Assembly: GCA_021740385.1 (NCBI GenBank)
Contig: JAIOZY010000002.1
Span: 62,001 to 126,000 of the forward strand
Reading direction: 5' to 3'
Source: Prolixibacteraceae bacterium
Lineage (GTDB): Bacteria > Bacteroidota > Bacteroidia > Bacteroidales > Prolixibacteraceae
Length of the DNA: 64,000 nt
Positions within the stretch are counted from its first letter, which is position 1, and each line of letters starts with the position of its first letter. Under the pieces are notes generated by a model. The model saw only the letters and a program-made list of their open reading frames with translations. It ran no database searches and had not been told where the DNA came from. Below are positions 1-38,931 of the stretch, in pieces. Made by a program: the position numbers and the translations under genes.

Positions 1-596
1 GCACCAACGAAGGGGCAAACTGGTCCAACCTGTCGAACGGAACGGATTATTCAAATGTAACCTCCGCTACGTTAACCGTAAACAGCGGTGGCTTAACCAA
101 TGGGGATCAGTTTCGTTGCGTGCTGAGGGCGCTATGTGACGAAACCACTTCGGATGCTGCCACCCTCTACTTAGTTGACCCCGAATTGCTTGTAACACCC
201 TTAACGATCATCAAGTGCCCCGACACCGATCCTGCACTTGATTTCAACTCACTGAACAACGATTATGACATGGGCATGTCGGCCATTTCTTTCACCATTG
301 AACGGGAGACCGAAGGCCCCTTCCCATGGAGTTTTAATTACGAAATAACGGCCGACCCAGCCCTATTGGCAGCCCTGCAGCCCCAGGGCACATCGGGCAA
401 CATCAGCAACCCGGCCGGAACAGTTTCGGTTGAATTGACCTTCTATTTAGAAAACCAGACGGAAGAGACGGTTGAAGCCACTTTTTCAATTACAGATGTT
501 AGCGTTGCCGGGTGCACCGAAGCCACCAATGCAAACCACAGCGCTACCGTTTATGTAAGGCGGATGCCGGTTTCGGGAATTTTTGCCACTGAATAA
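1..596 (+). CDS. C-terminal end of a large secreted Ig-like-repeat protein (5' end outside window)
   Basis: The reading frame is open from base 3 and runs to a TAA at 594-596, so only about the last 197 residues are visible. The first 50 residues (NWSNLSNGTDYSNVT... ending in FRCVLRALCDETTSDAATLY) read like an Ig/PKD-type beta-sandwich repeat of giant Bacteroidota surface adhesins. The last 130 residues form a different domain, starting near IIKCPDTDP and ending in VYVRRMPVSGIFATE, with FTIERETEGPFPWSFNYEIT in the middle; the two following genes and the gene at 36256 end in related sequence. No T9SS sorting domain of type A or B is visible. With the downstream T9SS type B gene and PorP/SprF it probably forms an exported cell-surface structure. 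Function is inferred from context only. Confidence 0.7.
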   Translation, partial: TNEGANWSNLSNGTDYSNVTSATLTVNSGGLTNGDQFRCVLRALCDETTSDAATLYLVDPELLVTPLTIIKCPDTDPALDFNSLNNDYDMGMSAISFTIERETEGPFPWSFNYEITADPALLAALQPQGTSGNISNPAGTVSVELTFYLENQTEETVEATFSITDVSVAGCTEATNANHSATVYVRRMPVSGIFATE

Positions 597-623
597 AAAT
601 GCAATTAATGAAACAACGACAAT

Positions 624-639
624 CCCGACGTACGTCGGG
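624..639. repeat. Perfect 16-bp palindrome CCCGACGTACGTCGGG
   Basis: CCCGACGTACGTCGGG is self-complementary and lies in the 104-base gap between the first gene (stop at 596) and the ATG at 701. It could form a short hairpin in RNA or be a protein-binding or dispersed repeat site. There is no T-run after it, so a factor-independent terminator is not supported. Confidence 0.5.
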
Positions 640-700
640 AACAACAACGATAACAATGACAACAACGAAAAAATAATTGTTTAACTTAATCTTTATCATT

Positions 701-1618
701 ATGAAAAAACAGGTTTTTACTTTTTTAATTATGCTTTCACTGGTAGCCATTACCGGTAAGGTATTCGGACAGGGCAGTACGCCCATGGCACCCTACAACG
801 GGGCAACACATACTTATGTGGTCAACGGTTTAACCGATAATGATTTGTATGTTTTTGCAATTAACACCAGCTCAACCGGTTTCAATCATGTTGCAAGTGG
901 TGACTATACCGTCGTATCAGGTACAGTTGACCCCGGTGCTCCCGGAACTGTTTCGGGAAGCGAAGCTTCGCTCGAAGTAACATGGAACGTTGGTACCGGA
1001 AGCGGCCCGTATTATGTGTGGATCAGGATAGAGGATTCGGAAGGCTGTTATACCTACAGGGCTTTGCCCGTTAATCCGGTTGATGCCCCACCGGCATATA
1101 CAGTCGATTTTACCGTAATAGCATTTGACGGAACTGGCGATGAAACCACCACGGCCGGCGTACTAACCGGAGGTTCATACGAAGTTGCGGTTAGCGATGT
1201 TTGTCCTTCGTTTATTGGTGAAGACTGGGTGCTTGATGCACTCGACGATGCTACAACTACCGATGGCAGCACCTATGTTTACTTCAGGGTAAACCGCGCA
1301 AGCACACAAGCATCGGGTTGGAATATTACACCTGCAACATCGGGTGCTTCAACATGGGAAGTATCAACCGATGCCTCTTCATGGAACACAATAAATGCCA
1401 CCCAATCGGTAGCATCAGGCAACGTATTGTATGTAAGGGCCACTGTTGACAATTCAACCTCACAACAAGTGGTTAGTTTCGATATCCAGAATACCGGCCA
1501 GGATGCCGGCGGTATTGCAACCGATGCTGACACACCAGGTGTTGGCAGTGATTCAAACAGCGCTTCGGTTACTCTCGATCCGCTGCCGGAAGTTGGAACC
1601 TTTGGCGACAGCTATTAA
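701..1618 (+). CDS. Secreted protein of the T9SS type B module, first of two paralogues
   Basis: A 305-residue protein. I chose the ATG at 701 over an in-frame TTG at 677 because it gives a clean signal peptide (MKKQVFTFLIMLSLVAITGKVFG, cleavage near GQG). The mature protein begins STPMAPYNGATHTYVVNGL, and the next gene begins almost the same way (SSPALPYEGAVHTYVVNGL), so the two are paralogues. Residues about 170-305 match the C-terminal domain of the preceding and following genes: a CP start, YFRVNRAS...GWNIT in the middle and LDPLPEVGTFGDSY at the end. No known T9SS sorting domain is present. It stands 12 bases before the next ATG, so co-transcription is very likely. Family not recognised; a structural or adhesive subunit is an inference. 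Confidence 0.75.
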   Translation: MKKQVFTFLIMLSLVAITGKVFGQGSTPMAPYNGATHTYVVNGLTDNDLYVFAINTSSTGFNHVASGDYTVVSGTVDPGAPGTVSGSEASLEVTWNVGTGSGPYYVWIRIEDSEGCYTYRALPVNPVDAPPAYTVDFTVIAFDGTGDETTTAGVLTGGSYEVAVSDVCPSFIGEDWVLDALDDATTTDGSTYVYFRVNRASTQASGWNITPATSGASTWEVSTDASSWNTINATQSVASGNVLYVRATVDNSTSQQVVSFDIQNTGQDAGGIATDADTPGVGSDSNSASVTLDPLPEVGTFGDSY

Positions 1619-1630
1619 TAACATTACAGC

Positions 1631-2482
1631 ATGACCCGTATAATTAGATTAACATTTTTAATAACGGCACTTTGCGCCTTTGCTGTAATGGCAAAGGCAC
1701 AAAGCTCGCCGGCTTTGCCCTACGAAGGGGCTGTTCACACCTACGTGGTAAACGGGCTGGCACCGGGCACACAGTATGCCTTTTACATGGCATCTGCCCC
1801 CCACGGAAGCAGTGTGCTGAATGATGGGTCTGTTGTTGAATTCGACTTCCTGGGCGAAACCACGGGAACCGTATCGCCGGGCGAAAGTACGGCCGCATTA
1901 TCGGTGTTGTGGAATGAAGGCGCTGCTGCCCACTTATTTTACCTGGGCATTGACGTAACCCACCCCGATGGATGCTCCGTAAGTCGTTACCTGCGTATTG
2001 TACCGCAGGTTAACCGGTTCGACCTGCTGAGCGAAAACCTCCCGGTTGATAACACTGAAAGTTGCCCGGCTATTGGTGCCACCGACGGGTTTAACCCGCT
2101 GGCAACTGAGTACAGTGCCGGGACTACCACGTTGCAATTTAAAGTAAGGCGTGAAGGCAGCAACCGCGGCTGGTCGTTTGAACCGGTTATATCCATCGAT
2201 CCTTCGTGGAACCTCGACGTGGACGTTGTATCGGTAGTTGCTCCTGTTACAGGGACACTTATAGCTGATGCTTCGAACATTTACAACGTACCGGCAACCG
2301 ACAGTGAAGTAATTGTAAATGTGGCCGTACGGAATTACGAGGGCACCGAACAGGTTGTTACGCTTACCATACGTAACCAGGAAGAAGAACATACAAGGCT
2401 GAACGACAGCAACGCTGAAAATGACCGGGTAGAACACCGGATTATGGTGATGCCGGTCATTATGGAATTGGAGGAAATTTAG
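1631..2482 (+). CDS. Secreted protein of the T9SS type B module, second paralogue
   Basis: A 283-residue protein with signal peptide MTRIIRLTFLITALCAFAVMAKAQ. The mature N terminus repeats the PYxGAxHTYVVNGL motif of the upstream gene; the body (about 25-130) resembles it in layout, including a VLWNEG / VTWNVG strand and a DGCSVSRYLR / EGCYTYRALP strand. From about residue 148 (ESCPAIG) to the end is the shared C-terminal domain, with LQFKVRREG..RGWSFEPVIS and a final HRIMVMPVIMELEEI. It lies between its paralogue and the T9SS type B gene, with a 221-base gap to the latter that contains inverted repeats. Likely an exported surface subunit; exact role unknown. Confidence 0.75.
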   Translation: MTRIIRLTFLITALCAFAVMAKAQSSPALPYEGAVHTYVVNGLAPGTQYAFYMASAPHGSSVLNDGSVVEFDFLGETTGTVSPGESTAALSVLWNEGAAAHLFYLGIDVTHPDGCSVSRYLRIVPQVNRFDLLSENLPVDNTESCPAIGATDGFNPLATEYSAGTTTLQFKVRREGSNRGWSFEPVISIDPSWNLDVDVVSVVAPVTGTLIADASNIYNVPATDSEVIVNVAVRNYEGTEQVVTLTIRNQEEEHTRLNDSNAENDRVEHRIMVMPVIMELEEI

Positions 2483-2703: not shown

Positions 2704-4383
2704 ATGAAAAAAAGAAACCGATATATACTCATAGCTTTGCTGCTATTGCTTCTTCCTGCACCTTTTGTTGCCGGGCAGGGGCATTACGTAGTTGCCAAAG
2801 GTTATGAAAAAACGTATCGGATCAACAAACCTTCGAACGTAACCGAAATTATCTGGGAAGTTTTTACCAGCCCCGATTACACAATAAACGCAACACCTGA
2901 GCAGGTTGACCTGACTGTTTCGGAAACCGGAAATGAAGTTACTGTGCGGTGGGTTTCCGAAGGAGAATATTACCTGATGGTTACCATGATGGGCGAAACC
3001 GGTTGCCTAAACAAAAAAGCCTGGCCCTTTAAGGTTGAACCCCCGGCCCAACTGCTCGCATCAACGTTTTGTAAAGATGGCATCCCCTGGATAAAATGGG
3101 ACGCCTCTGCAACAGGCTTTGAAGTTGAATCGATCGGGTTAAAACTATATGACCTTAGCGGGCAGTTGGTCGAAAAAATCGAAAATGCAGCCCCATCGGG
3201 AACCATGCCCTGGCCCGGCGCATCGAACAAATCGGGCACTTCGGTGCCTGAAGAATGGGCCACAATTGATTTAAATGCCGAGTTCAGGGGCATTCCCGGT
3301 GCCGATTCAATTACCGTGCGGCTTGTTGCACCAAACTGTGAATCGGAAGCCGTTGTAGCAATAAACGATACCATTGTCGCCTGGCACGGCGTTACAACGC
3401 CTATAGAAATTTTGTACAACGATTATGACACCGAAGGGAAACTCGATTCGTCGAGTGTGATTATCACAGCTTCAACAGGCAATGCTGCGTTCACCCTTGA
3501 TCCGGTTTCCGGTAGGGTTGACTACATGCCCAACAGGTGCTTTTTCGGGCTCGACTCATTGGTATACGTTGTTTCAAACGCATCGGGCATAACTTCAAAT
3601 GAAGCTACCGTGTATGTGAATGTTGAAATACATCCTTACCTCGACAGTGATAACGACAGCATTCCCGATATTGATGAGCTAATTGTTGAAACAGATAACC
3701 TTTGCGATACCGATACCGATATGGATGGCTTACCAAATTTTATGGATCCGGATGACGATAACGATGGTATTCCCACGGTGGCAGAAAGGGGCGACCTGAA
3801 CAACAACGGCATACCCGACTATTTGGAAGACTGGAAATCGAAAGCTGTTGATGATTATACCATTACCGGTATCGATATTCCGGTTTGGATTGCCGTACTT
3901 GAAAACGACTCAAGCACCATGGTGCCGGCCACACTGAGCATTATTACAAACCCGGAAAAAGGTTTTGTTTCGGTCGACCCCGGAAATTACGAACTGAATT
4001 ACGCCCCCGATTATGAATTCAAGGGTTCCGATTCGTTCCTTTATGTTGTTTGTGACCATTACAACATTTGCGACACAGCCCTTGTGGTGGTTACCATTGA
4101 AGACTTGCTTGAGCTTCCCGAAGTATTTACACCGAATAACGACGGGTATAACGACCGCTACATGATTCGTAACATTGAGCGATACCCCGATAATCATTTT
4201 GTGGTTTTCAACCGTTGGGGCAACAAGGTTTATGAAAAAACAAATTATGCAAACGAATGGGACGGCCATTCAAACTCGAAATACAAACTGGGGGGACAGC
4301 CCCTTCCGGTAGGGGTGTATTTTTATATACTTAAATATGCAAACAACAAGGTTAAACAAGGAGGCGTATTCCTGCAACGTTAA
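2704..4383 (+). CDS. T9SS type B sorting-domain protein (gliding motility-associated C-terminal domain)
   Basis: A 559-residue protein with signal peptide MKKRNRYILIALLLLLLPAPFVAG. Residues about 25-115 form a beta domain. Two cadherin-like beta domains follow (around residues 225-305 and 382-460, each with an ILYNDYD / VLENDSS type strand), separated by an acidic, probably calcium-binding stretch at about 315-375 (SDNDSIPDIDE, DTDMDGLPNFMDPDDDNDGI) like thrombospondin type 3 repeats. The C terminus (about 470-559: LPEVFTPNNDGYNDRY, VVFNRWGNKVYE, VGVYFYILKY) is the type B sorting domain (TIGR04131-type). Such proteins are exported by T9SS and usually depend on a PorP/SprF partner, encoded 6 bases downstream. 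Likely the anchor or tip of the surface assembly made by this cluster. Confidence 0.85.
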   Translation: MKKRNRYILIALLLLLLPAPFVAGQGHYVVAKGYEKTYRINKPSNVTEIIWEVFTSPDYTINATPEQVDLTVSETGNEVTVRWVSEGEYYLMVTMMGETGCLNKKAWPFKVEPPAQLLASTFCKDGIPWIKWDASATGFEVESIGLKLYDLSGQLVEKIENAAPSGTMPWPGASNKSGTSVPEEWATIDLNAEFRGIPGADSITVRLVAPNCESEAVVAINDTIVAWHGVTTPIEILYNDYDTEGKLDSSSVIITASTGNAAFTLDPVSGRVDYMPNRCFFGLDSLVYVVSNASGITSNEATVYVNVEIHPYLDSDNDSIPDIDELIVETDNLCDTDTDMDGLPNFMDPDDDNDGIPTVAERGDLNNNGIPDYLEDWKSKAVDDYTITGIDIPVWIAVLENDSSTMVPATLSIITNPEKGFVSVDPGNYELNYAPDYEFKGSDSFLYVVCDHYNICDTALVVVTIEDLLELPEVFTPNNDGYNDRYMIRNIERYPDNHFVVFNRWGNKVYEKTNYANEWDGHSNSKYKLGGQPLPVGVYFYILKYANNKVKQGGVFLQR

Positions 4384-4389
4384 AAAGAA

Positions 4390-5325
4390 ATGAGAAGACG
4401 ACTGTATAAATATGGTTTGGCTGTTTTGCTGGGTTTTTCTGCAATGTGCGGTTTTGCCCAACAAGATCCCCTGTTTACACAGTATATGAACAACCCCGGG
4501 TTGATAAATCCGGCTTATGCAGGCAGTAATAATGTAATGAACATTAATGGAATATTCCGCAAACAATGGGTCGGACAGGCATGGAGCCCAACCACCACAA
4601 CACTTTCGTTAAACACCCCGATGCAAAAATTCAAGGTTGGGCTGGGACTGACCTTTGTCGATGATCAAATTGGGCCATGGCACCAAACCGGCCTTTATAT
4701 CGACTATGCAAGGCATTTTTCCATTAACAACAAACACAACATTTCCCTCGGGCTTAAAGCCGGTTTCAACTATCTTGATATTAACCTGATGAACCTGATC
4801 ATGTACGAATACGATCCGTATATTGCTGCTGACCCGCATAGCACAACATTTTTGCCCAACTTCGGCCTGGGCGTTTTTTATTTTACCGATAAGTATTTCA
4901 TGGGTTTTTCGGTACCAAAGCTTATACGGAACGGCATAAAAGAAAACGAGAATACCCTTGAAGCCATTGGCCGGGAAGAAAGGCACTATTTCCTAACAGC
5001 AGGCTACCTGTTTACAATTCACGAACCGGTTTGGAAACTAAAAGCAAGTGCCATGGCACGTTTTGTGAATGGCGCACCCTCGTCATTCGAAGTGAGTGCA
5101 ACCACCATTTTCTACGACCGGATATGGTTTGGGCTAACCTACAGGCTGGGCGATGCCATTGCCGCTCATGTAAGAGGACAGGTAAGCAACCGGCTTCAAA
5201 TTGGGTATTCGTACGATTTGAACAACTCACGCCTGAAGAAATTCAACAGCGGTTCGCACGAAGTTTTTATCAATTACAACTTTTCGTTTAGCGATCAACC
5301 CATCCGGTCACCCCGGTATTTTTAA
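4390..5325 (+). CDS. PorP/SprF family type IX secretion outer-membrane protein
   Basis: A 311-residue protein with signal peptide ending in SAMCGFAQQ. The mature start QDPLFTQYMNNPGLINPAYAG is the family hallmark of PorP/SprF (TIGR03519), followed by alternating strands of a predicted 14-strand beta-barrel and a typical end NYNFSFSD. Family members sit in the outer membrane with the T9SS machinery and help export or attach type B sorting-domain partners such as SprB. It is 6 bases after the type B gene, so the two are almost surely translated from one message. Family assignment is firm; its specific partner is inferred from adjacency. Confidence 0.92.
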   Translation: MRRRLYKYGLAVLLGFSAMCGFAQQDPLFTQYMNNPGLINPAYAGSNNVMNINGIFRKQWVGQAWSPTTTTLSLNTPMQKFKVGLGLTFVDDQIGPWHQTGLYIDYARHFSINNKHNISLGLKAGFNYLDINLMNLIMYEYDPYIAADPHSTTFLPNFGLGVFYFTDKYFMGFSVPKLIRNGIKENENTLEAIGREERHYFLTAGYLFTIHEPVWKLKASAMARFVNGAPSSFEVSATTIFYDRIWFGLTYRLGDAIAAHVRGQVSNRLQIGYSYDLNNSRLKKFNSGSHEVFINYNFSFSDQPIRSPRYF

Positions 5326-26036: not shown

Positions 26037-29000
26037 ATGGAAAAAAGCAAAGAAAAAAACGCATGCTTCTACATAAAACCTTGTAATACACTAAAAGCCT
26101 TTTTGACTTTTTCCCTCCTGATTTTTGTTTTGAACGGGATTCAGGCAACAAAACTTGTCGAGGTTAAAGTTGTTGACAAAGATTACCTGCAGGTATTTTT
26201 CAAAGACGGCGATGTTGTTTTTGTAGATGACGGGCTCGGACCGGATGCGTATACAGCCACCCACCAAACCGACAACAATTATGTGGTAAGTTACGGCCCG
26301 GCAATTAACACCGGGAATGCAACAACTACCGGCAGCTGGCTGCTAAAATCATCCGACGACCCTGAATATGGCGAAACAGGCCTCAATCCCGATAACTGTT
26401 ACCGGAAATCGAAACTTAACGGGCTGGCCGAAATGGACTGGGCAGGTAGCGACTGGAGTTACGAATACACCATGGAACATACCATCATTTTGGAATTGCC
26501 AAAATCGATGACAAACGGGAAAACCTATACCCTCGAAATAAACAGCAACACAAATTCCGATTCAACGACTTGCACATTTACCTATGATATTTTTCAAAGC
26601 CGAACGGAAGCAATACACATAAACCTAATTGGTTATTCAACAGAAGAAAGCATCAAACCGGCCGACTTGTACATGTGGATGGGCAATGGCGCTGCCCGTG
26701 ATTATTCAGGCTTCGAGGGGAACACCGTATACATTTACGATGTAAACTCCGGGCTGTCGTATCCGGTGGGTACGGTTAATTTATATACAAACAAGGCCAG
26801 CGAGGCTTATGGCCGCTACATGATCCAGTCAGATGTTTGGAAGGCCGACTTTTCGGGCTTCAATACCCCGGGGACATACCGTCTGGCCATTGAAGGCATT
26901 GGGTGCAGCAACGATTTTGAAATAAAAAGCGATATCTATTTTGAACCCTTTAAAGTATCGACACTTGGTTTTTACTATATGCGCATTGGCGAAGACCGTT
27001 TAGACATGTACCCGGTTCCGAGAAGGCCTTTATATTTGCCGGGTGTCAGCCCTTCAACAACCAAAGTTGTGATTACCGATGTTGACCCTTACGATTCGGA
27101 ATGGGGTTCATACAGTGGCGACAACTGGGACAGTCCCTCGTGGTTTTCGAACTATATAAAACCGGGCAGCCCCGAAAATCCCAATGCCTGGGGCGGTCAC
27201 AGCGATGCATTGGACTGGGACCGGCACCTGGGGCATGTGCCCATTATTTACGATATGCTTTTACCCTACTTTTTAACCGGGGGCGCCCTTTTTTCCGACG
27301 AACTGGGTATTGGCGAAAGCGGCAACGGTATTCCCGATATCATTGACGAAGCCCGAAACGAAGTCGACTTTTGGCTACGGCTGCGTTACCAGGGTGGTTA
27401 CAGCCATGGATTAAGCAACCCGAACAGCAGCAACGTATTGTACCAGGCCGACAATACCCCGGTAGCCGCCTGGGCAAATGCGGCAAATGCAGCCATGCTG
27501 GCCGAAGCGTTCCGGCTTGCGTCAATGCCCGGCTTAATGGAAGAATACCGCGATTCGGCCATCAACGCATACAATTATGCGAGCAGCTTGTCGAACCAAA
27601 TGCTCGACCAACACTGCTCGGCAGGACTGCGTGGGCGTGACCTGAAAATGACCGCTGCTGCTTTTTTATACAACATTACAGGAAACACCGATTATGAAGA
27701 TGTTGTTAACAATGAAAGCCTGGTTAGCAACTCTACTTCCGACTTTTTCAAAGCCGACCAGTACAACCAGCTATACGCAATGGCTGCCTACCTGAAAACA
27801 CCTCAAACCGTTCATTATCCAACATTGCAAAGCAACATGAAAGAAGCTGCCGTATACCAGGCCATGCTGCGTGAAGCAAACAATTCGGAAACACGGCCTT
27901 CCCGCAGGTCGTCCGATGCCGATTACGGTTGGTTCCATACCGAAATACACGTACACCGCAGCATCCTTGCCCACGCCGTTACCTCCGATGCTGCCGACAA
28001 AGCCTTTCTCGAAAATGCCCTGGTACTTGAAGCCGGTTGGAGCCTTGGACGAAATTCGGCCAACGTGATACAAATGACAACGGCCACCACAAGTCTTGAA
28101 AATAAGAAAAGCGCCATGCAAGCCTATACATCGGGATGGGACGACGGGGCTCCCGGCGTTCACCCCGGCCATACTCCCTACTGGAACCTTCACGACTGGG
28201 GATCGGGTATGATCATGGGCCGTCCTACCTGGCTGTCGGACAAAGGCTACCCCGATATTGACGACTGGCCGGTATCCGAAGCCTATTACGATGTGAGGTA
28301 CGTGTACGCTCATACCGAGTTTACCCCACAACAAACCATGCGGGGCAAACAAGCATTGTATGGCTATTTGGCAGCCATTGGCGAACCACCGGCACCTCCC
28401 GTTTCAGTTACAGGGATAACACTTAGCCCGACAGCTTTAATTCTGAATGGAACAGAAACACAACAAATCACGGCTACTGTTGAACCCGAAAATGCCACAA
28501 ACAAGTTCCTGATCTGGCAAAACAACGATGATGATGTTGCGACAATAAGCATCGACGGAAAAGTAACCGGGGTTGGTGTTGGTTCGACAATAATTGTTGC
28601 CACTACTGCCGATGGAGGTTTTAAGGATACCTGCGAAATTACCGTTAACAATGTAGCGGTTACCGGAGTTTCGGTTTCGCCAACAGCGGCAACAATAAAA
28701 GAAAGCGAAGTTGAAACCTTAACGGCAACAATTATCCCTGAAAACGCCATTCAAAAAGGGGTAAGCTGGGAAACAAGCGACCCTCTGATTGCTACCGTAA
28801 ACACAAACGGTATGGTAACCGGCATTTCGCCAGGTACCGCCACCATTACAGCTACCAGTAACGAAGGAGATTTTAACGCTACCTGCACGATAACCGTGGA
28901 ACAATTGCCCGATCAGCTAATCGTTTACAGCGACATTGAAAATATTGTAAACGGGACCTGGACAGGAACCGGCACTTTAAGCGAGTTAAGCAGTGGCGGG

Positions 29001-31103
29001 TTCGAGGGTTCGGAACAGTACAGGTATGATTACAGCCTTTTGGAATGGTGGGATGGAATGGGCATGTATTTCGACCCGGTTGACGCATCGCAATACGAAA
29101 ACCTCAACATAGCCATTAATGGGCCTACAACATCAAACAATTACATCTATATCCAGTTGTTCGATGAAGATGAGAATTCAAGCGAGACATACAGCTTCGA
29201 GAGAACTACTGCATACGAGCAATTCTCTGTTCCTTTAGAAGATTTAATTGGGGACACATCGTTTGACCCGTCACAAACAACACAAATAATGATTGCGGTT
29301 TCGGGCACTTCATCCGGATCGGGTACTTTCTATTTCGATTACATCTATTTTGGCGATCCAGTTGAGGTTATTCCTGTAACAGGAGTTACCGTGAGCCCGC
29401 TTACCGGCACAATTGATGGCGGAACTCTGCAACTGACAGCAACCGTACTGCCCGAAGATGCCACAAACAAAGAAGTTAGCTGGAGCTCCGACAATCCCTC
29501 GATTGCAACAGTAAACCGCACAGGAATGGTTATGGGAAATGCTATTGGAACGGCAACAATAACAGCAACTACAAGCGATGGCGGTTTTACGGCAAGCTCA
29601 GAAATAACAGTAGTTACACCCACCGAAGGCAGGATTATTAAAGTTATGCCACTTGGAAATTCAATAACCCAGGGCGACGGAAGGGCCGCATTGTACCTCG
29701 TACCCGGAGGTTACCGCTTGCCCTTATGGGAAAACCTTGTCGATGCCGGCCTCGACTGTGGGGTCGACTTTGTGGGATCACTTACCACCAACCCGGCCAC
29801 CGGCCTTCCCGACCCTGACCACGAAGGGCACTCGGGCTGGACTACCGGGATGATACTGGATAACATTGATGCCTACATGGCCAGTGCTAACCCCGATATT
29901 GTAATGATGCATCTTGGCACAAACGATGTTGCCCAGGATGTTGTTGACGATGCACCGGCAAACCTGCGCGCCCTCATGGACCATATATGTGCGGCTTTGC
30001 CCCCCGATGGAAAACTCTATGTGGCAAAAATAATCCCCATGGGCGGGGTTGGCAATGCCTCATCGATAGCCTACAACAGCCTGATTGTTGACGCGGTAAC
30101 AGAGAAACAGGGCGAAGGGTTACCCGTGCACCTTGTTGATGCTTACGGAATGTGGCAAAACGAGTATTACGATGCCTGGGGACAAAGCAACTGCGATTGG
30201 ACCCACCCCGGACAACTGGGCTACAATGCCCTTGGCGATTTCTGGTTCGATGTAATAAAAGACGACGTTCAATTGCCATGCACCACCGATATTCCTGTAA
30301 CCGGGGTAACGGTCAATCCGGAAAGTACAAGAATAAAAGTCGACTCAACGCACCAATTATCAGCCATAATCAGTCCCGAAAACGCCACAAACCAGGAAGT
30401 AAATTGGAACAGCAGTAACACATTGGTTGCAACTGTTAGCCCGGGCGGATTTGTTACCGGCCTTTCTGCCGGAACAGCAACCATAACGGCTACAACAGTT
30501 GACGGAAACTTTACCGGCACTTCTGTCATTACCGTATCGGAAGTTGCAACCAACCTGAATGTAACAGACATAACACTGTACCACGGCGACATTGAATGCT
30601 TCGATGCCGAACAGGTAATTACCGTAGCCGGAAACGAAACCACAGTAACGATTGAAAACGGTGCTACCGCAGCATTCATCGCGGGTCAATCGATACTTTT
30701 TTTGCCCGGCACACACATACAGGAAGGGGCCACGGCTAGCGCAACCATCACAACCGACCAAACGTTTTGTTCCGAAAACGAAGCAGAATATATTGTGGAA
30801 TACCTTCCATCTGAAAAAAACAATACGGTTGATAAAAACCAAAATGAAGAAACAGGAGATTTGCAAAAAGACGTGAAAGTATATCCGAACCCGTGTACCG
30901 GAAGGTTCACTGTTGAGTTGATTAACATTGAAAAAAACGCTTCCGCCGTAATCTACAATACTGTTGGTAATGCTGTGCTCAGAAAAACATTAAATTCCGC
31001 TGTTTCAAACACAATAAACTTAAATCACTCGCCTAAAGGCATATACTTCATTAAAACGCTCAGCGGCAAAAAACAAATTGTCAATAAAATTATTGTCATT
31101 TGA
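26037..31103 (+). CDS. Multidomain GH9 glycoside hydrolase / SGNH esterase exported by T9SS
   Basis: 1688 residues. Order: signal region (to about 38), N-terminal beta domain, CelD-type Ig domain (about 190-300), GH9 (alpha/alpha)6 catalytic domain (about 310-780; catalytic Asp pair in GGHSDALDWDRHLGH, IPDIIDEARNEVDFWLRLR, SEAYYDVRYVYAHTEF near its end), two Big_2 Ig domains (782-955), a beta-sandwich probably carbohydrate-binding (956-1110), a third Big_2, an SGNH esterase resembling CE3 (about 1198-1414: LGNSITQGDG, HLGTNDVAQ, DWTHPGQLGYN), a fourth Big_2, and a type A T9SS sorting domain (about 1615-1688: VYPNPCTGRFTVE to IVNKIIVI). It probably cuts an acetylated beta-glucan or xylan-like polymer at the cell surface; exact substrate unknown. 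Monocistronic. Confidence 0.9.
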   Translation: MEKSKEKNACFYIKPCNTLKAFLTFSLLIFVLNGIQATKLVEVKVVDKDYLQVFFKDGDVVFVDDGLGPDAYTATHQTDNNYVVSYGPAINTGNATTTGSWLLKSSDDPEYGETGLNPDNCYRKSKLNGLAEMDWAGSDWSYEYTMEHTIILELPKSMTNGKTYTLEINSNTNSDSTTCTFTYDIFQSRTEAIHINLIGYSTEESIKPADLYMWMGNGAARDYSGFEGNTVYIYDVNSGLSYPVGTVNLYTNKASEAYGRYMIQSDVWKADFSGFNTPGTYRLAIEGIGCSNDFEIKSDIYFEPFKVSTLGFYYMRIGEDRLDMYPVPRRPLYLPGVSPSTTKVVITDVDPYDSEWGSYSGDNWDSPSWFSNYIKPGSPENPNAWGGHSDALDWDRHLGHVPIIYDMLLPYFLTGGALFSDELGIGESGNGIPDIIDEARNEVDFWLRLRYQGGYSHGLSNPNSSNVLYQADNTPVAAWANAANAAMLAEAFRLASMPGLMEEYRDSAINAYNYASSLSNQMLDQHCSAGLRGRDLKMTAAAFLYNITGNTDYEDVVNNESLVSNSTSDFFKADQYNQLYAMAAYLKTPQTVHYPTLQSNMKEAAVYQAMLREANNSETRPSRRSSDADYGWFHTEIHVHRSILAHAVTSDAADKAFLENALVLEAGWSLGRNSANVIQMTTATTSLENKKSAMQAYTSGWDDGAPGVHPGHTPYWNLHDWGSGMIMGRPTWLSDKGYPDIDDWPVSEAYYDVRYVYAHTEFTPQQTMRGKQALYGYLAAIGEPPAPPVSVTGITLSPTALILNGTETQQITATVEPENATNKFLIWQNNDDDVATISIDGKVTGVGVGSTIIVATTADGGFKDTCEITVNNVAVTGVSVSPTAATIKESEVETLTATIIPENAIQKGVSWETSDPLIATVNTNGMVTGISPGTATITATSNEGDFNATCTITVEQLPDQLIVYSDIENIVNGTWTGTGTLSELSSGGFEGSEQYRYDYSLLEWWDGMGMYFDPVDASQYENLNIAINGPTTSNNYIYIQLFDEDENSSETYSFERTTAYEQFSVPLEDLIGDTSFDPSQTTQIMIAVSGTSSGSGTFYFDYIYFGDPVEVIPVTGVTVSPLTGTIDGGTLQLTATVLPEDATNKEVSWSSDNPSIATVNRTGMVMGNAIGTATITATTSDGGFTASSEITVVTPTEGRIIKVMPLGNSITQGDGRAALYLVPGGYRLPLWENLVDAGLDCGVDFVGSLTTNPATGLPDPDHEGHSGWTTGMILDNIDAYMASANPDIVMMHLGTNDVAQDVVDDAPANLRALMDHICAALPPDGKLYVAKIIPMGGVGNASSIAYNSLIVDAVTEKQGEGLPVHLVDAYGMWQNEYYDAWGQSNCDWTHPGQLGYNALGDFWFDVIKDDVQLPCTTDIPVTGVTVNPESTRIKVDSTHQLSAIISPENATNQEVNWNSSNTLVATVSPGGFVTGLSAGTATITATTVDGNFTGTSVITVSEVATNLNVTDITLYHGDIECFDAEQVITVAGNETTVTIENGATAAFIAGQSILFLPGTHIQEGATASATITTDQTFCSENEAEYIVEYLPSEKNNTVDKNQNEETGDLQKDVKVYPNPCTGRFTVELINIEKNASAVIYNTVGNAVLRKTLNSAVSNTINLNHSPKGIYFIKTLSGKKQIVNKIIVI

Positions 31104-31796: not shown

Positions 31797-33311
31797 CTAC
31801 AGTTTTTCATATACGTAGGCTTCTTCCCTTTCTTTTGCTTCCTCGTTCCATTCGGGTATAACTTCATTAATGAAGCGCTTTTTATCGGCATTCAGCTGCT
31901 CCATATCGAGCCCTATAAAGGCCTGGGCTTTTGCTTTTGTCGAAACATCGGGGTAAGGCACAGGTTGGTTGTGCCCAAGGGTTGCAAGCACACGTGCCAG
32001 CTTTATGCGGGCTTCCTGTGCTATTGTTATGCCCGAGGCAATTACCCGGCTTACCTCAACCGGCGAATGAAACGAAGCGCCATGGCTTGCCGCGGCATAA
32101 TCCCAGCGCCACTGTGCATGGCGGATGTCGGTCAGGGCCTCTTTCATCATTGCATCGGTGGCCCCGTTATCCCAGGCTGTTTTTGCCTCAACGTGAGCAC
32201 GAACAAGTTGCTTTTCAAGTTCGTCGCGGTTTTCTATCACTTTCCGGTGACGTTCGTTCACATCTTTCACAAGTTGTGCAGTCTCGTCGCGGTGGCAAAC
32301 CTGGCACGAGTTAGCTACGTTATTTAACGGGCTCTGAATGTGGTGGTCGGTAAATTTTTGCCCGCCTTCGCTCATGTACGGCATGTGGCAATCGGCACAC
32401 GATACGCCACGGCTTGCATGAACCCCGGTACTGAAAATTTCGTAACCGGGATGCTGTGCTTTCAGCATGGGTGCTTTGCTGAGCTGGTGTGTCCAGTCGG
32501 CAAATTCCATATTATCGTAATACTGCTCCATGGCCTCAACGCTCATGCCGTTGTCCCACGGGTAAACCAGGTATTGCACCCCTTCAGCAATGTTCTTGTT
32601 AAAATAGTACTCGACATGGCACTGGGCACAAACCAGCGACCGCATTTCCTGGTGCGAGGCCCGTGTAATGTCCCTGCCCACCCGTTCGAATGCTTCAACA
32701 AGTGCGGGCCGTGAAATGTGCAGGTTCATGGTTTTTGCATCGTGGCAATCGCCACAACCAATGGGGTTAACAATTTCGGCACCCTTCTCTTCCCAGGTTC
32801 CCTTGTAAAAACCGGCCGGGCCCATTTCGTTCATCAAACGTGGCACATCGGGGCTTTTGCAGGTCCAGCAGGTATTGGGCATGGGGCTGGTTTTCCCGTC
32901 AAAGGGTGCACCTGTCCGCAATATGTTCCGCATATCGGTTATCGCGTGCCTGTGCCCCCGGGCCTGGTTGTACTCTTTTGAAAAGCTGTAGCCAGCCCAC
33001 AACACCACAAGGCGCGGGTCAACTTCAAGCATGTCAATCCATGCCGAACCCATGTATTCGCTCCTGAAAGTGGTGTCTTCGGTTTCGAGCCACGACTGGT
33101 ATTCCCGTGGGAAATTTTGCCCCCACACTTCCGAGCGGGGTTCAAACTGCCCGTGTTCAACCTGTGGTGTGTACACGAAAGCCGATTCGGCTCTGCGCTC
33201 AACAATGGTTGAAGCAAAAAGGCCAAGAACAAAAACAACAACCACGGTTGCCAGAAAAAGCAACCAGCCAATAATGGGCTTTTCCTTTACAATGCTGACT
33301 AATGACTTCAT
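31797..33311 (-). CDS. nrfA: Ammonia-forming cytochrome c nitrite reductase catalytic subunit
   Basis: 504 residues with an uncleaved-type N-terminal hydrophobic segment (IIGWLLFLATVVVVFVLGLFA). It carries the diagnostic lysine-ligated haem motif CWTCK plus four CxxCH motifs (CGDCH, CAQCH, CADCH, CQVCH), so five haems in all. KAQHPGYEIFSTGVHASRGV and the following histidines match the calcium/active-site region. It reduces nitrite to ammonium with six electrons in the periplasm. nrfH lies 17 bases upstream and supplies electrons from menaquinol. Confidence 0.97.
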   Translation of the reverse strand: MKSLVSIVKEKPIIGWLLFLATVVVVFVLGLFASTIVERRAESAFVYTPQVEHGQFEPRSEVWGQNFPREYQSWLETEDTTFRSEYMGSAWIDMLEVDPRLVVLWAGYSFSKEYNQARGHRHAITDMRNILRTGAPFDGKTSPMPNTCWTCKSPDVPRLMNEMGPAGFYKGTWEEKGAEIVNPIGCGDCHDAKTMNLHISRPALVEAFERVGRDITRASHQEMRSLVCAQCHVEYYFNKNIAEGVQYLVYPWDNGMSVEAMEQYYDNMEFADWTHQLSKAPMLKAQHPGYEIFSTGVHASRGVSCADCHMPYMSEGGQKFTDHHIQSPLNNVANSCQVCHRDETAQLVKDVNERHRKVIENRDELEKQLVRAHVEAKTAWDNGATDAMMKEALTDIRHAQWRWDYAAASHGASFHSPVEVSRVIASGITIAQEARIKLARVLATLGHNQPVPYPDVSTKAKAQAFIGLDMEQLNADKKRFINEVIPEWNEEAKEREEAYVYEKL

Positions 33312-33328
33312 ATAATGCGGTTTTTGTA

Positions 33329-33910
33329 TTACTGATTATTCAATTTTTTTATCCATTCGGGCACCGGGCTGCCGGCTACCGGCACGCGGGCATTGGGTAC
33401 GCTCGAAAGACTGTTCACCCGTCCGTGAGGCGTTTCACGGTGGCAGGTCCAGCACTGTTTATCTTTCAGCTCCTCGTCGAAAGTTTGGGTGTAACGCAAC
33501 ATTTTGTCGTTGGTAAGCAACTCTTCGTGGCAACGTATGCAGTTTTGCTGCACCACGTTTTGCCCGGCTTCATGAATAAAAATCACCTGCGGCTCGAGCC
33601 GTAACGTGAACATGGTTGCATGGCGCAGCCCGTCTTTTGCCTTAAAATAGTATTTGTTCACCACGTTATTGTGGGGTACGTGGCAATCGTTACAATGGGT
33701 CTGGTTACGGTGGCTACTGTGCGCCCAGGTAGCATATTGCGGGGCCATAATGTGACAGTTCATGCAGGTTTCGGGCTTATCGCCCAGGTACGATGGCGCT
33801 TTCGACCAGTGCAGCACAAGTAATCCAATGCCCGTAAAAATCCCCAGCATTAAAATTACCGGGATTTTCCATTGATCGGGGGGCATAAACCATTTGACAA
33901 ATCGGTTCAT
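33329..33910 (-). CDS. nrfH: NrfH-type tetrahaem membrane cytochrome c
   Basis: 193 residues: one N-terminal transmembrane helix (WKIPVILMLGIFTGIGLLVLH), then four CxxCH haem motifs (CMNCH, CNDCH, CIRCH, CWTCH), as in the NapC/NirT family subgroup NrfH. It oxidises menaquinol and passes electrons to NrfA. Transcribed first, so the operon is nrfHA. The 270-base AT-rich gap upstream (33911-34180) should hold its promoter; I found no clear consensus box there. Confidence 0.95.
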   Translation of the reverse strand: MNRFVKWFMPPDQWKIPVILMLGIFTGIGLLVLHWSKAPSYLGDKPETCMNCHIMAPQYATWAHSSHRNQTHCNDCHVPHNNVVNKYYFKAKDGLRHATMFTLRLEPQVIFIHEAGQNVVQQNCIRCHEELLTNDKMLRYTQTFDEELKDKQCWTCHRETPHGRVNSLSSVPNARVPVAGSPVPEWIKKLNNQ

Positions 33911-34180: not shown

Positions 34181-34849
34181 GTGACAAAATTCCGTAGCAA
34201 ATACCGCATTGAACCTAACCGATTCAAATATTGGGATTATTCTGCACCGGGAAGATATTTCCTAACCATTTGTATTAATAAAAGGGAATGTATTCTGGGT
34301 AACGTGGTGAACAAAAAAATGGAATTATCCCAATATGGTAAATTTGTTGAAACCGAAATCAGAAAAATACCCCAATATAACCCGCGTATTATTTTAGATG
34401 AATGGCAGATAATGCCAAACCATATTCATTTAATAATTGAATTAGGGAAATACAATTTTAACAATGGCATTGCTAACACCGATGATCAAAACGGGGACGG
34501 TGATGGCAACGTAGAGAAAATTCATGAATTTTCTCTACAAACGCCACAACAAACGCCACAACAAACCCCCAATCAACAATGGTGGCACAAACACGATTAT
34601 AAACCAACCCTTGACGAAATAAAACAATACAGGAAACAACGGCGGAAAATGATCATCCCCCAAATATTAGGCAAATTGAAAATGAAAACATCGAAACAAA
34701 TGAATGATACACGAAAAACACCTGGTCAAAAAAATTGGCAATCCGATTACCACGACCATATCATTCGTGACGATCAATCATATCGACGAATAAAAAATTA
34801 TATTCGTAATAATCCTGAAAATTGGGATAAAGACACGCTTAATGAATAA
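34181..34849 (+). CDS. REP-associated tyrosine transposase (RAYT, IS200/IS605-like Y1 fold)
   Basis: 222 residues from a GTG at 34181 (no earlier ATG). Core motifs of the Y1 HUH transposases: N-terminal FKYWDYSAPGRYFLTICINK, the metal-binding HxH in MPNHIHLII (about residue 86), and a catalytic-Tyr helix SYRRIKNYIRNNPENW near the end. The middle contains a glutamine-rich linker (TPQQTPQQTPNQQ) and, in DNA, a perfect 28-bp palindrome. RAYTs cut and join short REP hairpins rather than moving as insertion sequences. It lies between nrfH and a NapH-like gene, with REP-like hairpins 1.2 kb downstream. Confidence 0.85.
   Translation: MTKFRSKYRIEPNRFKYWDYSAPGRYFLTICINKRECILGNVVNKKMELSQYGKFVETEIRKIPQYNPRIILDEWQIMPNHIHLIIELGKYNFNNGIANTDDQNGDGDGNVEKIHEFSLQTPQQTPQQTPNQQWWHKHDYKPTLDEIKQYRKQRRKMIIPQILGKLKMKTSKQMNDTRKTPGQKNWQSDYHDHIIRDDQSYRRIKNYIRNNPENWDKDTLNE
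34511..34538. repeat. Perfect 28-bp palindrome inside the RAYT gene
   Basis: GTAGAGAAAATTCA joined to its exact reverse complement TGAATTTTCTCTAC. It begins with GTAG and ends with CTAC, the tetranucleotide used by RAYT enzymes next to REP hairpins. In frame it codes within VEKIHEFSLQ, in the variable linker between the two conserved blocks. Confidence 0.8.
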
Positions 34850-34879
34850 TTCGTTGCCATTAATTGTGACCGCTTTGAA

Positions 34880-35863
34880 ATGACAAAAAACAAATTCAGT
34901 TCATATTATCTGCCGGCAGGTGTGTTCATTTTTGTAGCCTTCATCCTGTCAATGATCCAGCTAAAAGTTGATTTCCCCATGTTGCTTTTCGAACGTTTTT
35001 TACCCGGCGGGGGCTGGGTTGAAATTTTCATCATTGCCTGTTTTGGCGCTGTGGTAGCGTACAAAATGCAGAATGTGAACCAATCGGCCAAATGGCGAAA
35101 AATTAGCTGGACGGTTTTCGCGGTATGGTTTTTCACGCAACTGCTTTTGGGCATTTTGGCCGATGAACGCTTTTTGTTAACGGGCGAATTGCACCTGCCT
35201 GTCCCGGCCATGATGATTAGCGGCCCCCTTTACCGGGGCGAAAAATCGATCATGACACTGTTATTCCTGAGTACTATTGTGCTTACCGGGCCGGCATGGT
35301 GCAGCCAGCTTTGCTACTTTGGGGCCATTGACAACCTTGCTGCAAAAGGAAAAACGTCGAAAAAACCCATCGGCAATAAGTTCCGATACAAGCACATCAT
35401 ACTGGTTGCAATTGTGGCTTTTACTTTGGTTTTTCGCTGGTTGAATGTTTCGCCGCTATGGGCTGCAATTGGCGGTGGGTTGTTTGGCATTGGCGGTTTT
35501 CTTGCAATATTCCTGCTAACAAAAAGACAAAAGCGCATGGTGCACTGCACGGTTTATTGTCCCATTGGAACGGTGGTAAATTACCTGAAATACATCAATC
35601 CTTTCAGGATGACGATCAGCTCATCGTGTGATATGTGCATGGCCTGCACAAGCAAATGTAAATACGATGCACTGAACTACACCGACATCGAAAAAAAGAA
35701 ACCCGGTATAACCTGCACACTCTGTGGCGACTGTCTTTCGGCTTGCAACAAAAGCGCCATTCAGTATAAATTTTTGGGGTTGAAACCTGAAACAGCCCGT
35801 AGGCTTTGGCTGTTCCTGACCATATCTATTTACTCGGTTTTCCTGGCCATGGGAAGGATATAA
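34880..35863 (+). CDS. NapH-like membrane iron-sulfur protein (polyferredoxin)
   Basis: 327 residues. Several transmembrane helices, two cytoplasmic Cys pairs typical of NapH/CcoG-type proteins (AWCSQLCYFGAID, HCTVYCPIGTV) and two [4Fe-4S] motifs near the C terminus (CDMCMACTSKCKYDAL, CTLCGDCLSACNKSAI). Such proteins move electrons between quinol and periplasmic acceptors or help assemble redox enzymes. It sits divergent from nrfHA, with the RAYT gene between, so a role in respiratory nitrite reduction is plausible but inferred. Confidence 0.85.
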   Translation: MTKNKFSSYYLPAGVFIFVAFILSMIQLKVDFPMLLFERFLPGGGWVEIFIIACFGAVVAYKMQNVNQSAKWRKISWTVFAVWFFTQLLLGILADERFLLTGELHLPVPAMMISGPLYRGEKSIMTLLFLSTIVLTGPAWCSQLCYFGAIDNLAAKGKTSKKPIGNKFRYKHIILVAIVAFTLVFRWLNVSPLWAAIGGGLFGIGGFLAIFLLTKRQKRMVHCTVYCPIGTVVNYLKYINPFRMTISSSCDMCMACTSKCKYDALNYTDIEKKKPGITCTLCGDCLSACNKSAIQYKFLGLKPETARRLWLFLTISIYSVFLAMGRI

Positions 35864-36076: not shown

Positions 36077-36255
36077 TGCGACTTTGCGAGAATCTTTAGC
36101 TTGTTGATTCTTTAGTGTTTGCGAGAGTCTTTATTGCCCGGAACTGCTTTAACATAATTGTTCATGTTGTTTGTTTTCCGTTACCCGGATGTTTAAAAAA
36201 CATTGTATATTTGTTTTATGCAGCATTGTTATCAACCAAGCGAAGGGTAATTTAC

Positions 36256-38931
36256 ATGTTAGGAAAGCAAAAAACCATAAATAGGGTCTTGGATGAAAAA
36301 GAGGGGGTTGCAGGTTTTGCACGAAGGAACCCTTTTGCTTTAGCCCTGGGTGTTTTTTTCCGTTACCTCACGGTATTGCTGTTAACTTTCCTGCTTTTAT
36401 CAGTAGCTGAGGCTCAGGCACAAAGCGGAAGCCAGACTTTTACTTCAAGCGGTACGTTTACCGTGCCCAGCGGGATAACAAAAATAACTGTTCAGGCTTG
36501 GGGCGGAGGAGGCCGGGGAGGCAGTGCTACCAGAAATAATAGTGAAAACGGTGGTGGTGGTGGTGGTGCTTACGCATCTTCAATTATTGATGTTACACCT
36601 GGTTCAACCTACACTGTAACTGTAGGGGGTGGAAGCAATTCAACTTCTCCGGGAGGTGATTCATGGTTTGGGACAACAAGTACCCTGTTGGCTAAGGGAG
36701 GGAACAGTGCAGGGAACGATGATTCAAACGGAGCTACAGGAGGTGCTGCCTCGTCATGTATTGGTTCAATTTGCTTGTCGGGGGGAAACGGAGCTAATGG
36801 ATCGGGTTCAGGTGGATCTGTTGTTGGTGGTGGAGGCGGTTCATCGGCAGGCTATTCAAGCAACGGCGATAACGGATATGGTACTGCTGGCGGGACTGCT
36901 CCTTCTGGTGGAGGAGATGGAGGAGACGGTGCAACAACCAATAATAATGGTACCCCTGGGTCTTCACCCGGTGGAGGGGGCGGTGGTGGTGCACGACAAA
37001 ATTCTAATGGCTTAGGAGGGGCTGGAGCCAGCGGACAAGTTATTGTCAGTTGGTCTACTCTTCCATATGTTAATTTTGCCAACGCATTCACGAACGTTGC
37101 AGAAAGCGGAGGTACTTTCACTGTTCTTCTTTCCATGTCTTCAACATCCTCTTCAAACGTTACTGTCAATTATTCGGTTTCGGGATCTGCAATAGAAAAT
37201 ACGGATTACACAATTGAATCATCCCCGGTAACCATTCCGGCGGGTAGTTCTTCTGCCGCCATAGAAATTTCAGTTACTGACGATACTTCGACTGAAAATG
37301 ATGAAACAATAATAATTACCATCAATAGTGTTACGAATGCAGCAATTGGAATTCCCGCCCAACATACGGTTACCATCATCGACAATGATTTTGTTGACCC
37401 GTCACTCGATGTATCCCCTTCTACCGTTTGTCAGGGGAATTCTGTAACATTTACGGCTGACCCCCCTTCCGGGAGTTGTGCCGATATTCAACGGTATGAA
37501 TCTTCACCCGATTTAACAAATTGGACAGACATTACAAGCAGTATGACGATTACTGGTTGTGATGCAACGTATACTCCTCCTTCAACAGGAACGCTTTTTT
37601 ATAGATATTATTATTATAGAAATCCACCAAACAGCGGTTATTCTAATACAGCAGCCGTTACTGTTAATACAACGCCCGATACTCCGGGCGAAATTTCGGG
37701 ATCAGCTAGTGTTGTAGCCGGACAAACAGATGTAAGTTACAGTGTTGCTGCAGTATCTGGAGCCACGAGCTATACCTGGAGTTATACAGGTAGCGGTGCA
37801 ACCATCAACGGTTCCGGGAATAATATAACAATCGATTTTTCAGGCAGTGCAACTTCAGGAGACCTTACCGTATATGCAACAAATAGTTGTGGAAATAGTG
37901 GGACTTCCAATGCTTTTTCAATATCCGTTAGTTTACCATCGCCCACCATCTCCGGCTTCGACCCTACTTCGGCCTGTTACGGCTCCGGTTCAACCGTGAC
38001 CATTACCGGAACCAACTTTACAGGGGTTACCGATGTGAGTTTTAATAGTGTTTCGGCCAGTTATACCGTGAACAGCTCAACCGAAATTGACGCAACCCTG
38101 CCGGCTACGGCCACAACCGGTACAATAAGTGTTACAACAAGTAGCGGTACTGCTACCAGTAGCTCATCGTTTACAGTGAACCCCCTGCCAACCAATACCT
38201 ACACCATGGATGATGTTGCCCTTTGCCACAATAGTTCAACTTCGCTAACCCTTTCGGGAAGCGAGAGCGGGGTAGATTACCAGTTGCGCGACAACAGCGA
38301 TGATTCGAACGTGGGCAGCGCCGTGTCCGGTACAGGCAGTTCAATCTCATTCACCAACCTTGCGCCCGATGATACAACCACTTACAACGTGCTGGCAACC
38401 AATGCCACTACCGGCTGCGAGGCCGAGATGACCGATCTGGCTACCATCAATGTCCTTTTTTTCAACGCGGCAGCCTGGAACATCACGGGGCTTACCGGAA
38501 GCGATTCAACTGATCTGGAACCGGCTTCGAGGCCAGATATTTGCCCCGAACTGAACCCGCCCGACTTTAACCCCGATGATGACAATTACGATTGCGGGGC
38601 CAGTTTTGTCGATTTCCGTATCGACCGGGATTCATCGCTTGCCAACTGGCAGTTCGATTTTACCATTACCGGTGCTACCGTGCTCGATACCATTGCCACG
38701 GGCGATGTGAGCACACCCTCCCTTGCCGGGGGGACTGTCGATGCCGGTAATAACAACAAGGTTTACCTGCGCTTTAAAATTGACAACGTAACCGAAACAA
38801 CTTTGTCCATTTCATTTAATGCCGACAATGTTCAGGATACCGATAACAGTTGCAACGAAACGGGCAATTTCGATGATAATGATGCGTATCAAACCATTAA
38901 CCCCATGCCCGAAGTGGGGCCGTTTGAGTAA
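36256..38931 (+). CDS. Large surface protein: glycine-rich, Calx-beta, Ig-like and IPT domains
   Basis: 891 residues from the ATG at 36256; the frame is open further upstream but only this start puts the membrane segment (FRYLTVLLLTFLLLSVAEAQAQ) in signal-peptide position, with an unusually long n-region. Order: glycine-rich repeat domain (about 55-270, TFTVPSGITKITVQAWGGGG), Calx-beta-like domain (about 275-375), Ig-like repeats (375-565), an IPT/TIG domain (about 570-650, TISGFDPTSACYGSGSTVTI), another Ig-like domain, and from about residue 760 the same C-terminal domain as the proteins at 1-2482, ending INPMPEVGPFE. No T9SS sorting domain. The 5' part is AT-rich, the 3' part is not. Likely an exported adhesin-like protein. 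Confidence 0.75.
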   Translation: MLGKQKTINRVLDEKEGVAGFARRNPFALALGVFFRYLTVLLLTFLLLSVAEAQAQSGSQTFTSSGTFTVPSGITKITVQAWGGGGRGGSATRNNSENGGGGGGAYASSIIDVTPGSTYTVTVGGGSNSTSPGGDSWFGTTSTLLAKGGNSAGNDDSNGATGGAASSCIGSICLSGGNGANGSGSGGSVVGGGGGSSAGYSSNGDNGYGTAGGTAPSGGGDGGDGATTNNNGTPGSSPGGGGGGGARQNSNGLGGAGASGQVIVSWSTLPYVNFANAFTNVAESGGTFTVLLSMSSTSSSNVTVNYSVSGSAIENTDYTIESSPVTIPAGSSSAAIEISVTDDTSTENDETIIITINSVTNAAIGIPAQHTVTIIDNDFVDPSLDVSPSTVCQGNSVTFTADPPSGSCADIQRYESSPDLTNWTDITSSMTITGCDATYTPPSTGTLFYRYYYYRNPPNSGYSNTAAVTVNTTPDTPGEISGSASVVAGQTDVSYSVAAVSGATSYTWSYTGSGATINGSGNNITIDFSGSATSGDLTVYATNSCGNSGTSNAFSISVSLPSPTISGFDPTSACYGSGSTVTITGTNFTGVTDVSFNSVSASYTVNSSTEIDATLPATATTGTISVTTSSGTATSSSSFTVNPLPTNTYTMDDVALCHNSSTSLTLSGSESGVDYQLRDNSDDSNVGSAVSGTGSSISFTNLAPDDTTTYNVLATNATTGCEAEMTDLATINVLFFNAAAWNITGLTGSDSTDLEPASRPDICPELNPPDFNPDDDNYDCGASFVDFRIDRDSSLANWQFDFTITGATVLDTIATGDVSTPSLAGGTVDAGNNNKVYLRFKIDNVTETTLSISFNADNVQDTDNSCNETGNFDDNDAYQTINPMPEVGPFE

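Follow-up and report, generated by a model that had tools for sequence, protein, structure and literature searches.

The window analysed here is a 64,000-nucleotide stretch of DNA (positions 62001-126000 of contig C47) from the 4.9 Mb genome, G000, of a Prolixibacteraceae bacterium. The genes at its start form an operon that encodes four secreted proteins, A to D, followed by a PorP/SprF outer-membrane protein. Two domains recur in these proteins, a C-terminal domain (CTD) and an N-terminal domain (ND), and a further CTD ends a separate protein, P4. All of these features are on the forward (+) strand, and the proteins are called secreted on the basis of signal peptides judged by eye.

Genes and domains of the operon

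Protein A is encoded by the first gene of the operon. The window holds its C-terminal part (1..596), the 837-residue open reading frame (ORF) starting upstream at approximately G000:C47:60083, and its N-terminus has no ND. The CTD of A (204..593), placed by profile, alignment and an AlphaFold model, finishes in the tail MPVSGIFATE at 564-593. Protein B (701..1618; 305 residues) is composed of a signal peptide, an ND (776..1090, by the ND profile) and a CTD (1190..1615, by profile and alignment) with the tail LPEVGTFGDSY at 1583-1615. Protein C (1631..2482; 283 residues), for which there is also an AlphaFold model, has the same layout: the ND lies at 1706..2023 (ND profile) and the CTD at 2048..2479 (profile and alignment), with the tail MPVIMELEEI at 2450-2479. 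To the eye, the signals of B and C look to be of the signal peptidase I type.

Protein D (2704..4383; 559 residues) has an N-terminal ND (2788..3048, by the ND profile and hhalign) and a C-terminal CHU_C/TIGR04131 type B sorting domain (4111..4359; 98.3 bits against a cut-off of 27 and 63.4 bits against a cut-off of 35), and lacks a CTD. In B, C and D, the ND starts straight after the signal peptide. The PorP/SprF protein (4390..5325) matches PF11751 and TIGR03519 with 263.3 bits (cut-off 22.3) and 261 bits, and its mature part contains no cysteine. P4 (36115..38931) is a modular, adhesin-like protein in which Gly_rich_2, Calx-beta, PKD_6 and TIG modules precede a CTD at 38503..38928 (profile and alignment), with the tail MPEVGPFE at 38905-38928.

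The order of the operon is conserved across genomes: a large A, at least one small protein, the type B protein D, and PorP. In some genomes, a PorE-like OmpA/PD40 protein comes next (checked in two operons). The small proteins range from 236 to 478 residues, two fusions aside, and 49 of 55 have 240-360. A second, more divergent operon lies in the same genome at approximately 158600-180000 of C47 (loci L079 and L080) and encodes A, five small ND proteins, D, PorP and a PorE-like protein. Its D has 2105 residues, and its A carries an ND-CTD unit at its end. SprA is also encoded in this genome.

The CTD is a real domain that matches no known sequence family

The initial annotation had proposed that the proteins ending at 596, 1618, 2482 and 38931 finish in one undescribed domain. 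The four ORFs do end at these positions, and the common domain is real. When the last 145 residues of each protein were aligned pairwise with 300 shuffles per pair, five of the six pairs outscored every shuffle. Numbering A, B, C and P4 as P1 to P4, the Z scores are 17.4 for P1-P4, 15.5 for P2-P4, 9.6 for P3-P4, 7.7 for P1-P3 and 5.2 for P2-P3. The pair P1-P2 is not above its shuffles (87 of 300 reach its score) and is linked only through the other pairs and the profile. The aligned columns carry the CP, F..R, W and P pattern first described for them. In each of the first 25 members gathered, 0-5 residues separate the end of the match from the stop codon.

The four proteins have no type A or type B sorting domain by Pfam and NCBIfam profiles, as had been claimed. 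No Pfam or NCBIfam family exceeds its cut-off across the CTD of the four proteins or of the 25 members. Profile searches rule out that the CTD is a known type A or type B sorting domain: the type A models (TIGR04183/PF18962) match 0/25 members at E values up to 0.1, and the type B models (TIGR04131/PF13585) match neither the CTDs of A, B, C and P4 nor those of the 25. No CTD match to the type C sorting domain (ChiA type) was obtained in NCBIfam, where the presence of a type C model is unconfirmed. An immunoglobulin (Ig) family known by sequence is ruled out by a Pfam scan of 53 members, in which no family touches more than 2/53 at E values up to 0.1. CARDB (PF07705) stays below its cut-off, with 1/53 members at E 0.0042 and 0/25 in the earlier set. 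Calx-beta (PF03160) has no CTD member among the profile matches listed for the 25 and the 53, and its likeness to the CTD is one of fold only. Matches to designed beta-trefoils among PDB sequences (best E 5.4e-4, over 26 positions) were taken as chance.

Predicted structures, tail and cysteines

AlphaFold2 models were made of single chains. Protein C (19 sequences; predicted local distance difference test, pLDDT, 82.6; predicted TM score, pTM, 0.60) is modelled as two beta-sandwich domains. The end of A (19 sequences; pLDDT 74.9; pTM 0.67) has a CTD with the strand order seen in C, so that the two predicted structures agree rather than show unrelated folds. Among the matches listed for the CTD of A, Calx-beta ranks nearest (3gin; Z 10.4, root-mean-square deviation (rmsd) 2.6, 108 residues aligned), and there is also a resemblance to CARDB (3idu; Z 8.8, rmsd 3.4, 106 aligned). 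The CTD of C resembles the FnBPA domain 4b5z (Z 8.3, rmsd 3.2, 112 aligned), which we take to be N3. A type A sorting structure is absent from the best 50 structural matches listed each time, which excludes nothing. The best 50 Foldseek rows for the two-domain model of C all have TM scores below 0.4 and are read only as tandem Ig-like domains. The predicted CTD fold is a common Ig-like sandwich, Calx-beta/CARDB-like in A, and the description "undescribed" is therefore valid for the sequence, within the libraries searched, and not for the fold. The shared fold reveals no function.

Behind the last strand of the CTD, the chain continues into a tail of low model confidence (mean pLDDT 57 in C and 50 in A). 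The tail motif, P-x-[VIT]-[GS]-x-[FI], is among the best conserved stretches, with freer positions between the fixed ones. Across 53 members, the proline is present in 52, the second position after it is I, T or V in 47, the third is G or S in 46, and the fifth is F, I or L in 49.

Cysteines are also conserved in both domains. In 40 subunits that combine a single ND with a single CTD, both domains contain at least one cysteine in every case and exactly one in 29; the other counts are two plus one in nine, three plus one in one, and two plus two in one. They lie near the end of the ND and at the start of the CTD, as at residues 115 and 145 of protein C. The presence of cysteine in both domains of 40/40 subunits suggests a single interdomain disulfide, and one conserved disulfide probably locks the ND to the CTD within the subunit.

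The ND and the place of each protein in the operon

The combination of domains was analysed across 27 loci with 206 ORFs in all, where the labels A and D were assigned by hand according to place. Two of the 24 A proteins are from loci without a visible D, L083 through lack of sequence and L082 as an orphan; others are on contigs cut before D (L084, L085). A profile built from the N-terminal region of B-type and C-type proteins and iterated over the 206 ORFs matches 75 of them. The ND is present in 55/55 small proteins, a class defined by it, in 17/21 D proteins and in 0/106 other ORFs. It is found at the N-terminus of 0/24 A proteins, and three A proteins carry it internally. The iterated CTD profile matches 13/24 A, 45/55 small, 0/21 D and 0/106 other ORFs, and the tail expression matches 21/24 A, 46/55 small, 1/21 D and 4/106 other ORFs, two of these four being operon genes. 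The type B domain is present in 20/21 D proteins; the remaining one, L081_0, is cut by the contig end before it. A thus ends in the CTD, B and C are ND-CTD proteins, and D joins an ND to a type B anchor. The ND is missing from the first secreted protein and the CTD from the last.

The four D proteins without an ND match, scored alone as a four-sequence file, and three of them with the in-frame sequence upstream of the chosen ATG, gave E values of 1.5e-18, 2.1e-9, 3.2e-5 and 0.0088, the last being weak. An un-iterated ND profile, made from B and C types only and with no D, detects 12/21 D proteins with best E values from 8e-7 to 0.018, several of them marginal. By hhalign, the ND of D and the ND of the small proteins are related with 98.1% probability (E 8.7e-14), and a control comparison of ND with CTD reaches 6.7%, covering 26 columns (E printed as 0.0055).

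Two natural fusions have the order ND-CTD-ND-CTD (L084:4361-6214 and L086:203-1939, from two genomes of one genus), and both retain a tail-like stretch between the first CTD and the second ND. The expectation that the CTD is always last holds in general and fails in these fusions, where a second ND-CTD unit stands behind it. In L070, L071 and L073, the A protein shows the tail motif even though the CTD profile does not match it. Given these proteins, and given that the ND occurs more widely (87/140 family genomes) than the CTD (40/140), it may be that the tail is preserved even as the CTD diverges or is replaced.

Distribution of the two domains

A profile of the four original sequences recovers them, gives one more, weaker match in the same genome (C47:176828-177250), and has matches in 8/60 related genomes. 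The 25-member CTD profile finds 75 places in 40 of the 140 Prolixibacteraceae genomes and in 11/23 genera. The ND, searched within the same 140 genomes, extends to 18/23 genera, and its genomes include 39 of the 40 with a CTD. The only other genome of the same genus as the window (86% complete) has neither CTD nor ND.

Wider scans scored approximately 9-10 candidates per genome, and distant CTD relatives may be missed for this reason. At the level of the phylum (395 genomes), the genome of the window alone matches the CTD at 1e-4, and 0/394 others do. In the order scan (393 genomes), matches came from the same genome, a single family member and one weak outsider, and none came from three further family members in the list. 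The class scan (395 genomes, 53-member profile) returned the same genome and four weak hits that cover only part of the profile. From these matches, the CTD appears to be hardly found outside Prolixibacteraceae. Viral spread was considered and rejected, as none of 38 pattern matches encodes a relative. A weak CTD place in the window at 29277-29516 (E 0.077) was taken as chance; the protein there is glycosidase-like and, by eye, has an end resembling type A.

Most CTD places adjoin genes for PorP/SprF and for a type B protein, as the initial annotation had looked for. Of the 75 places, at least 51 are followed by a CHU_C (type B) domain and at least 47 by PorP, counted on the same strand up to 8 kb downstream. 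The 24 places without CHU_C, judged by coordinates, consist of 21 contig-end cuts, the first gene of a longer operon in the genome of the window, and two true orphans, P4 (window 36115-38931) and G022:C28. The ND is similarly confined. In five whole genomes, 25 of its 27 matches are within these operons; each of the other two has a different type B domain downstream, at approximately 6 and 12 kb. The genome of the window has 13 CHU_C places, yet the ND is nearly confined to the operons described here.

A proposed surface chain and its alternatives

The ND occurs on all kinds of protein except the first, the CTD and its tail occur on all except D, the fusions repeat the unit, and an ND-CTD unit ends one A protein. 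On these grounds, docking of tail to ND is proposed. Each CTD tail would bind the ND of the next protein, either as a donor strand or as a docking peptide. A, as the adhesive end, B, C and D would join in gene order, and D would clamp the chain to PorP in the outer membrane. P4 could be an alternative end piece of the same chain, and the CTD may also serve the passage of A, B and C across the outer membrane. We put the probability that the operon encodes such a heteromeric surface chain, A-B-C-D-PorP, at roughly one half.

A fuller version of the chain is offered more tentatively: a non-repeating filament of different subunits, each with an ND as acceptor head and a CTD as donor tail, on a type B/PorP anchor. 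In it, gene order would be subunit order, and length would vary by the gain, loss and fusion of subunit genes. A static appendage seems likelier than a gliding one because the PorP proteins examined lack a mature cysteine (0/15).

Several observations weigh against the chain. A CTD on every secreted protein except D is equally expected for an export signal; D has its own sorting signal, so the absence of a CTD from D fits that explanation as well. The CTD is undetected in 11/24 A and 10/55 small proteins. The iterated profiles, run on the 206 ORFs themselves, may have drifted, and the tail expression was designed after the tails had been seen. The ND is PKD-like, with 8/50 members touching PKD_6 (best E 1.5e-4). 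The same pattern could also arise without any chain if an ND-CTD gene were duplicated in tandem.

The main rival to the chain, which we consider less likely, takes the CTD for a type IX sorting signal of a new kind. In this case, the CTD of A, B, C and P4 would take each of them through SprA, with this PorP or a different shuttle as carrier, and the ND would be incidental. The C-terminal position of the CTD in 25/25 members would fit such a signal, but the CTD is retained internally in the two fusions. Its modelled Ig-like sandwich may be like that of type A signals in the available passages of PMC12618676, but no type A or type B model matches it. The CTD genes adjoin type B and PorP genes in a genome that encodes SprA; only two of the 75 places are read as true orphans, unlike general sorting signals, and the CTD seems hardly to extend beyond one family. 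No recognised enzyme is among the ten A-type proteins scanned, which comprise P4 and nine more, all adhesin-like or unassigned. A sorting signal would account for the lack of a CTD in D, the sole protein with a known signal, and for the route across the outer membrane that A, B and C require, but it leaves the ND unexplained. Sorting and docking may both be partly true, and one domain may do both. The initial annotation had suggested polymerisation, docking or export; the ND, a domain it had missed, favours the first two, and export is kept as the rival.

It is improbable that there is neither chain nor signal and that the proteins are two-domain surface adhesins, each acting alone, that multiplied by tandem duplication next to a type B adhesin. 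The proteins are divergent tandem paralogues, and both domains have a common fold (ND Ig/PKD-like; CTD Calx-beta/CARDB-like). Lone adhesins would not lead one to expect a recurring order, an ND on D as well, a conserved tail outside the fold, or the absence of both domains from all 106 other ORFs. That A, B and C remain periplasmic and serve D and PorP as chaperones or in assembly is very improbable: they have signal peptides (by eye) without a known outer-membrane signal, and the Flavobacterium johnsoniae operon of sprB and sprF also includes sprC and sprD in the passages available, but P4 and some A-type proteins bear adhesin-like modules (Calx-beta, PKD, CBM96, laminin G), and SprC travels on the gliding track in the part of PMC12635249 available.

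If the chain is true, appendages of several subunits can be borne by anchors of the PorP type, and proteins without a known sorting signal must be exported or assembled by type IX systems. In the papers covered, as far as their available parts go, PorP/SprF anchors have been described as holding a type B protein. Two domain families, the CTD and the ND, are new. The presence or absence of each forms a simple code that predicts the place of each protein and is directly testable.

Comparison with known systems

A 2011 study by Rhodes is said to have placed sprC and sprD in one operon with sprB and sprF in F. johnsoniae. This is the nearest described arrangement, known here from title and passages, and it also has extra genes beside a type B adhesin and its SprF. 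No description of an operon like the present one was found in the literature, as judged by titles and the beginnings of abstracts.

The evidence on type B proteins comes from papers on F. johnsoniae and P. gingivalis. In the passages available, type IX secretion of type B proteins depends on a cognate partner of the PorP/SprF kind (PMC12618676), and they bind and stay bound to that partner (PMC9143113). As in the SprB-SprF and PG1035-PorP-PorE systems, D and PorP here match the same family models, as ordinary members of such a pair, and a type B gene is followed by porP; as in PG1035-PorP-PorE, a PorE-like OmpA/PD40 protein also follows in some operons (in the two checked). Unlike in either system, several secreted CTD/ND proteins that are not of type B precede the pair. 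SprF is tied to the gliding track by a Cys-Xaa-Cys in its C-terminal tail (PMC12635249, in part). In contrast, none of 15 PorP ORFs has a cysteine past residue 31, and there is no such twin-cysteine link to a gliding track in these proteins; they were picked from the 27 loci by an N-terminal pattern, PorPs without the pattern being uncounted, and one of them is cut by a contig end.

Compared with type A, B and C sorting domains, the CTD is likewise C-terminal. Solved type A domains are seven-strand Ig-like sandwiches (PMC12618676), and a type C signal exists (PMC10202324), both according to passages of these sources. The CTD, with its predicted Ig-like fold, may be like type A; the CTD differs from type A and B domains by the lack of a profile match (25 members) and by its internal position in two fusions. 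The CTD of A is like CARDB and Calx-beta in fold and not in sequence. With MSCRAMM adhesins and Gram-positive pilins, the proteins have Ig-like domains in common, at Z scores within the range of common arrangements and with no sequence relation. Type V pili (FimA/Mfa1) offer a functional analogy, as their subunits also have two beta domains. In the part of PMC5789003 available, these pilins are gingipain-cleaved lipoproteins with two beta-sheet domains, and a C-terminal donor strand has been proposed by some, a point left unresolved there. The present system would differ in that D would anchor it through PorP, and neither B nor C has a match to a pilin family at E values up to 1.

Surroundings of P4 and other observations

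P4 has no ND, and there is no D or PorP beside its gene. Its neighbours are cytochrome, transposase-like, ferredoxin-like and CNNM/CBS genes, kinds that argue for no hidden operon around it. At 31797-33910 of the window, a cytochrome c552 and a NapC/NirT-like cytochrome (nrfAH-like) are encoded, followed at 34181-35863 by IS200-type transposase-like and ferredoxin-like ORFs. The window also encodes a 1688-residue protein at 26037-31103, in which a glycosidase-like part, Ig-like repeats, an esterase-like part and a type A-like end can be recognised by eye. In another genome (G094:C1:3365346-3378903), four PorP copies with identical scores lie within approximately 14 kb on both strands, each adjoining a type B domain, a pattern that suggests a recent duplication or rearrangement.

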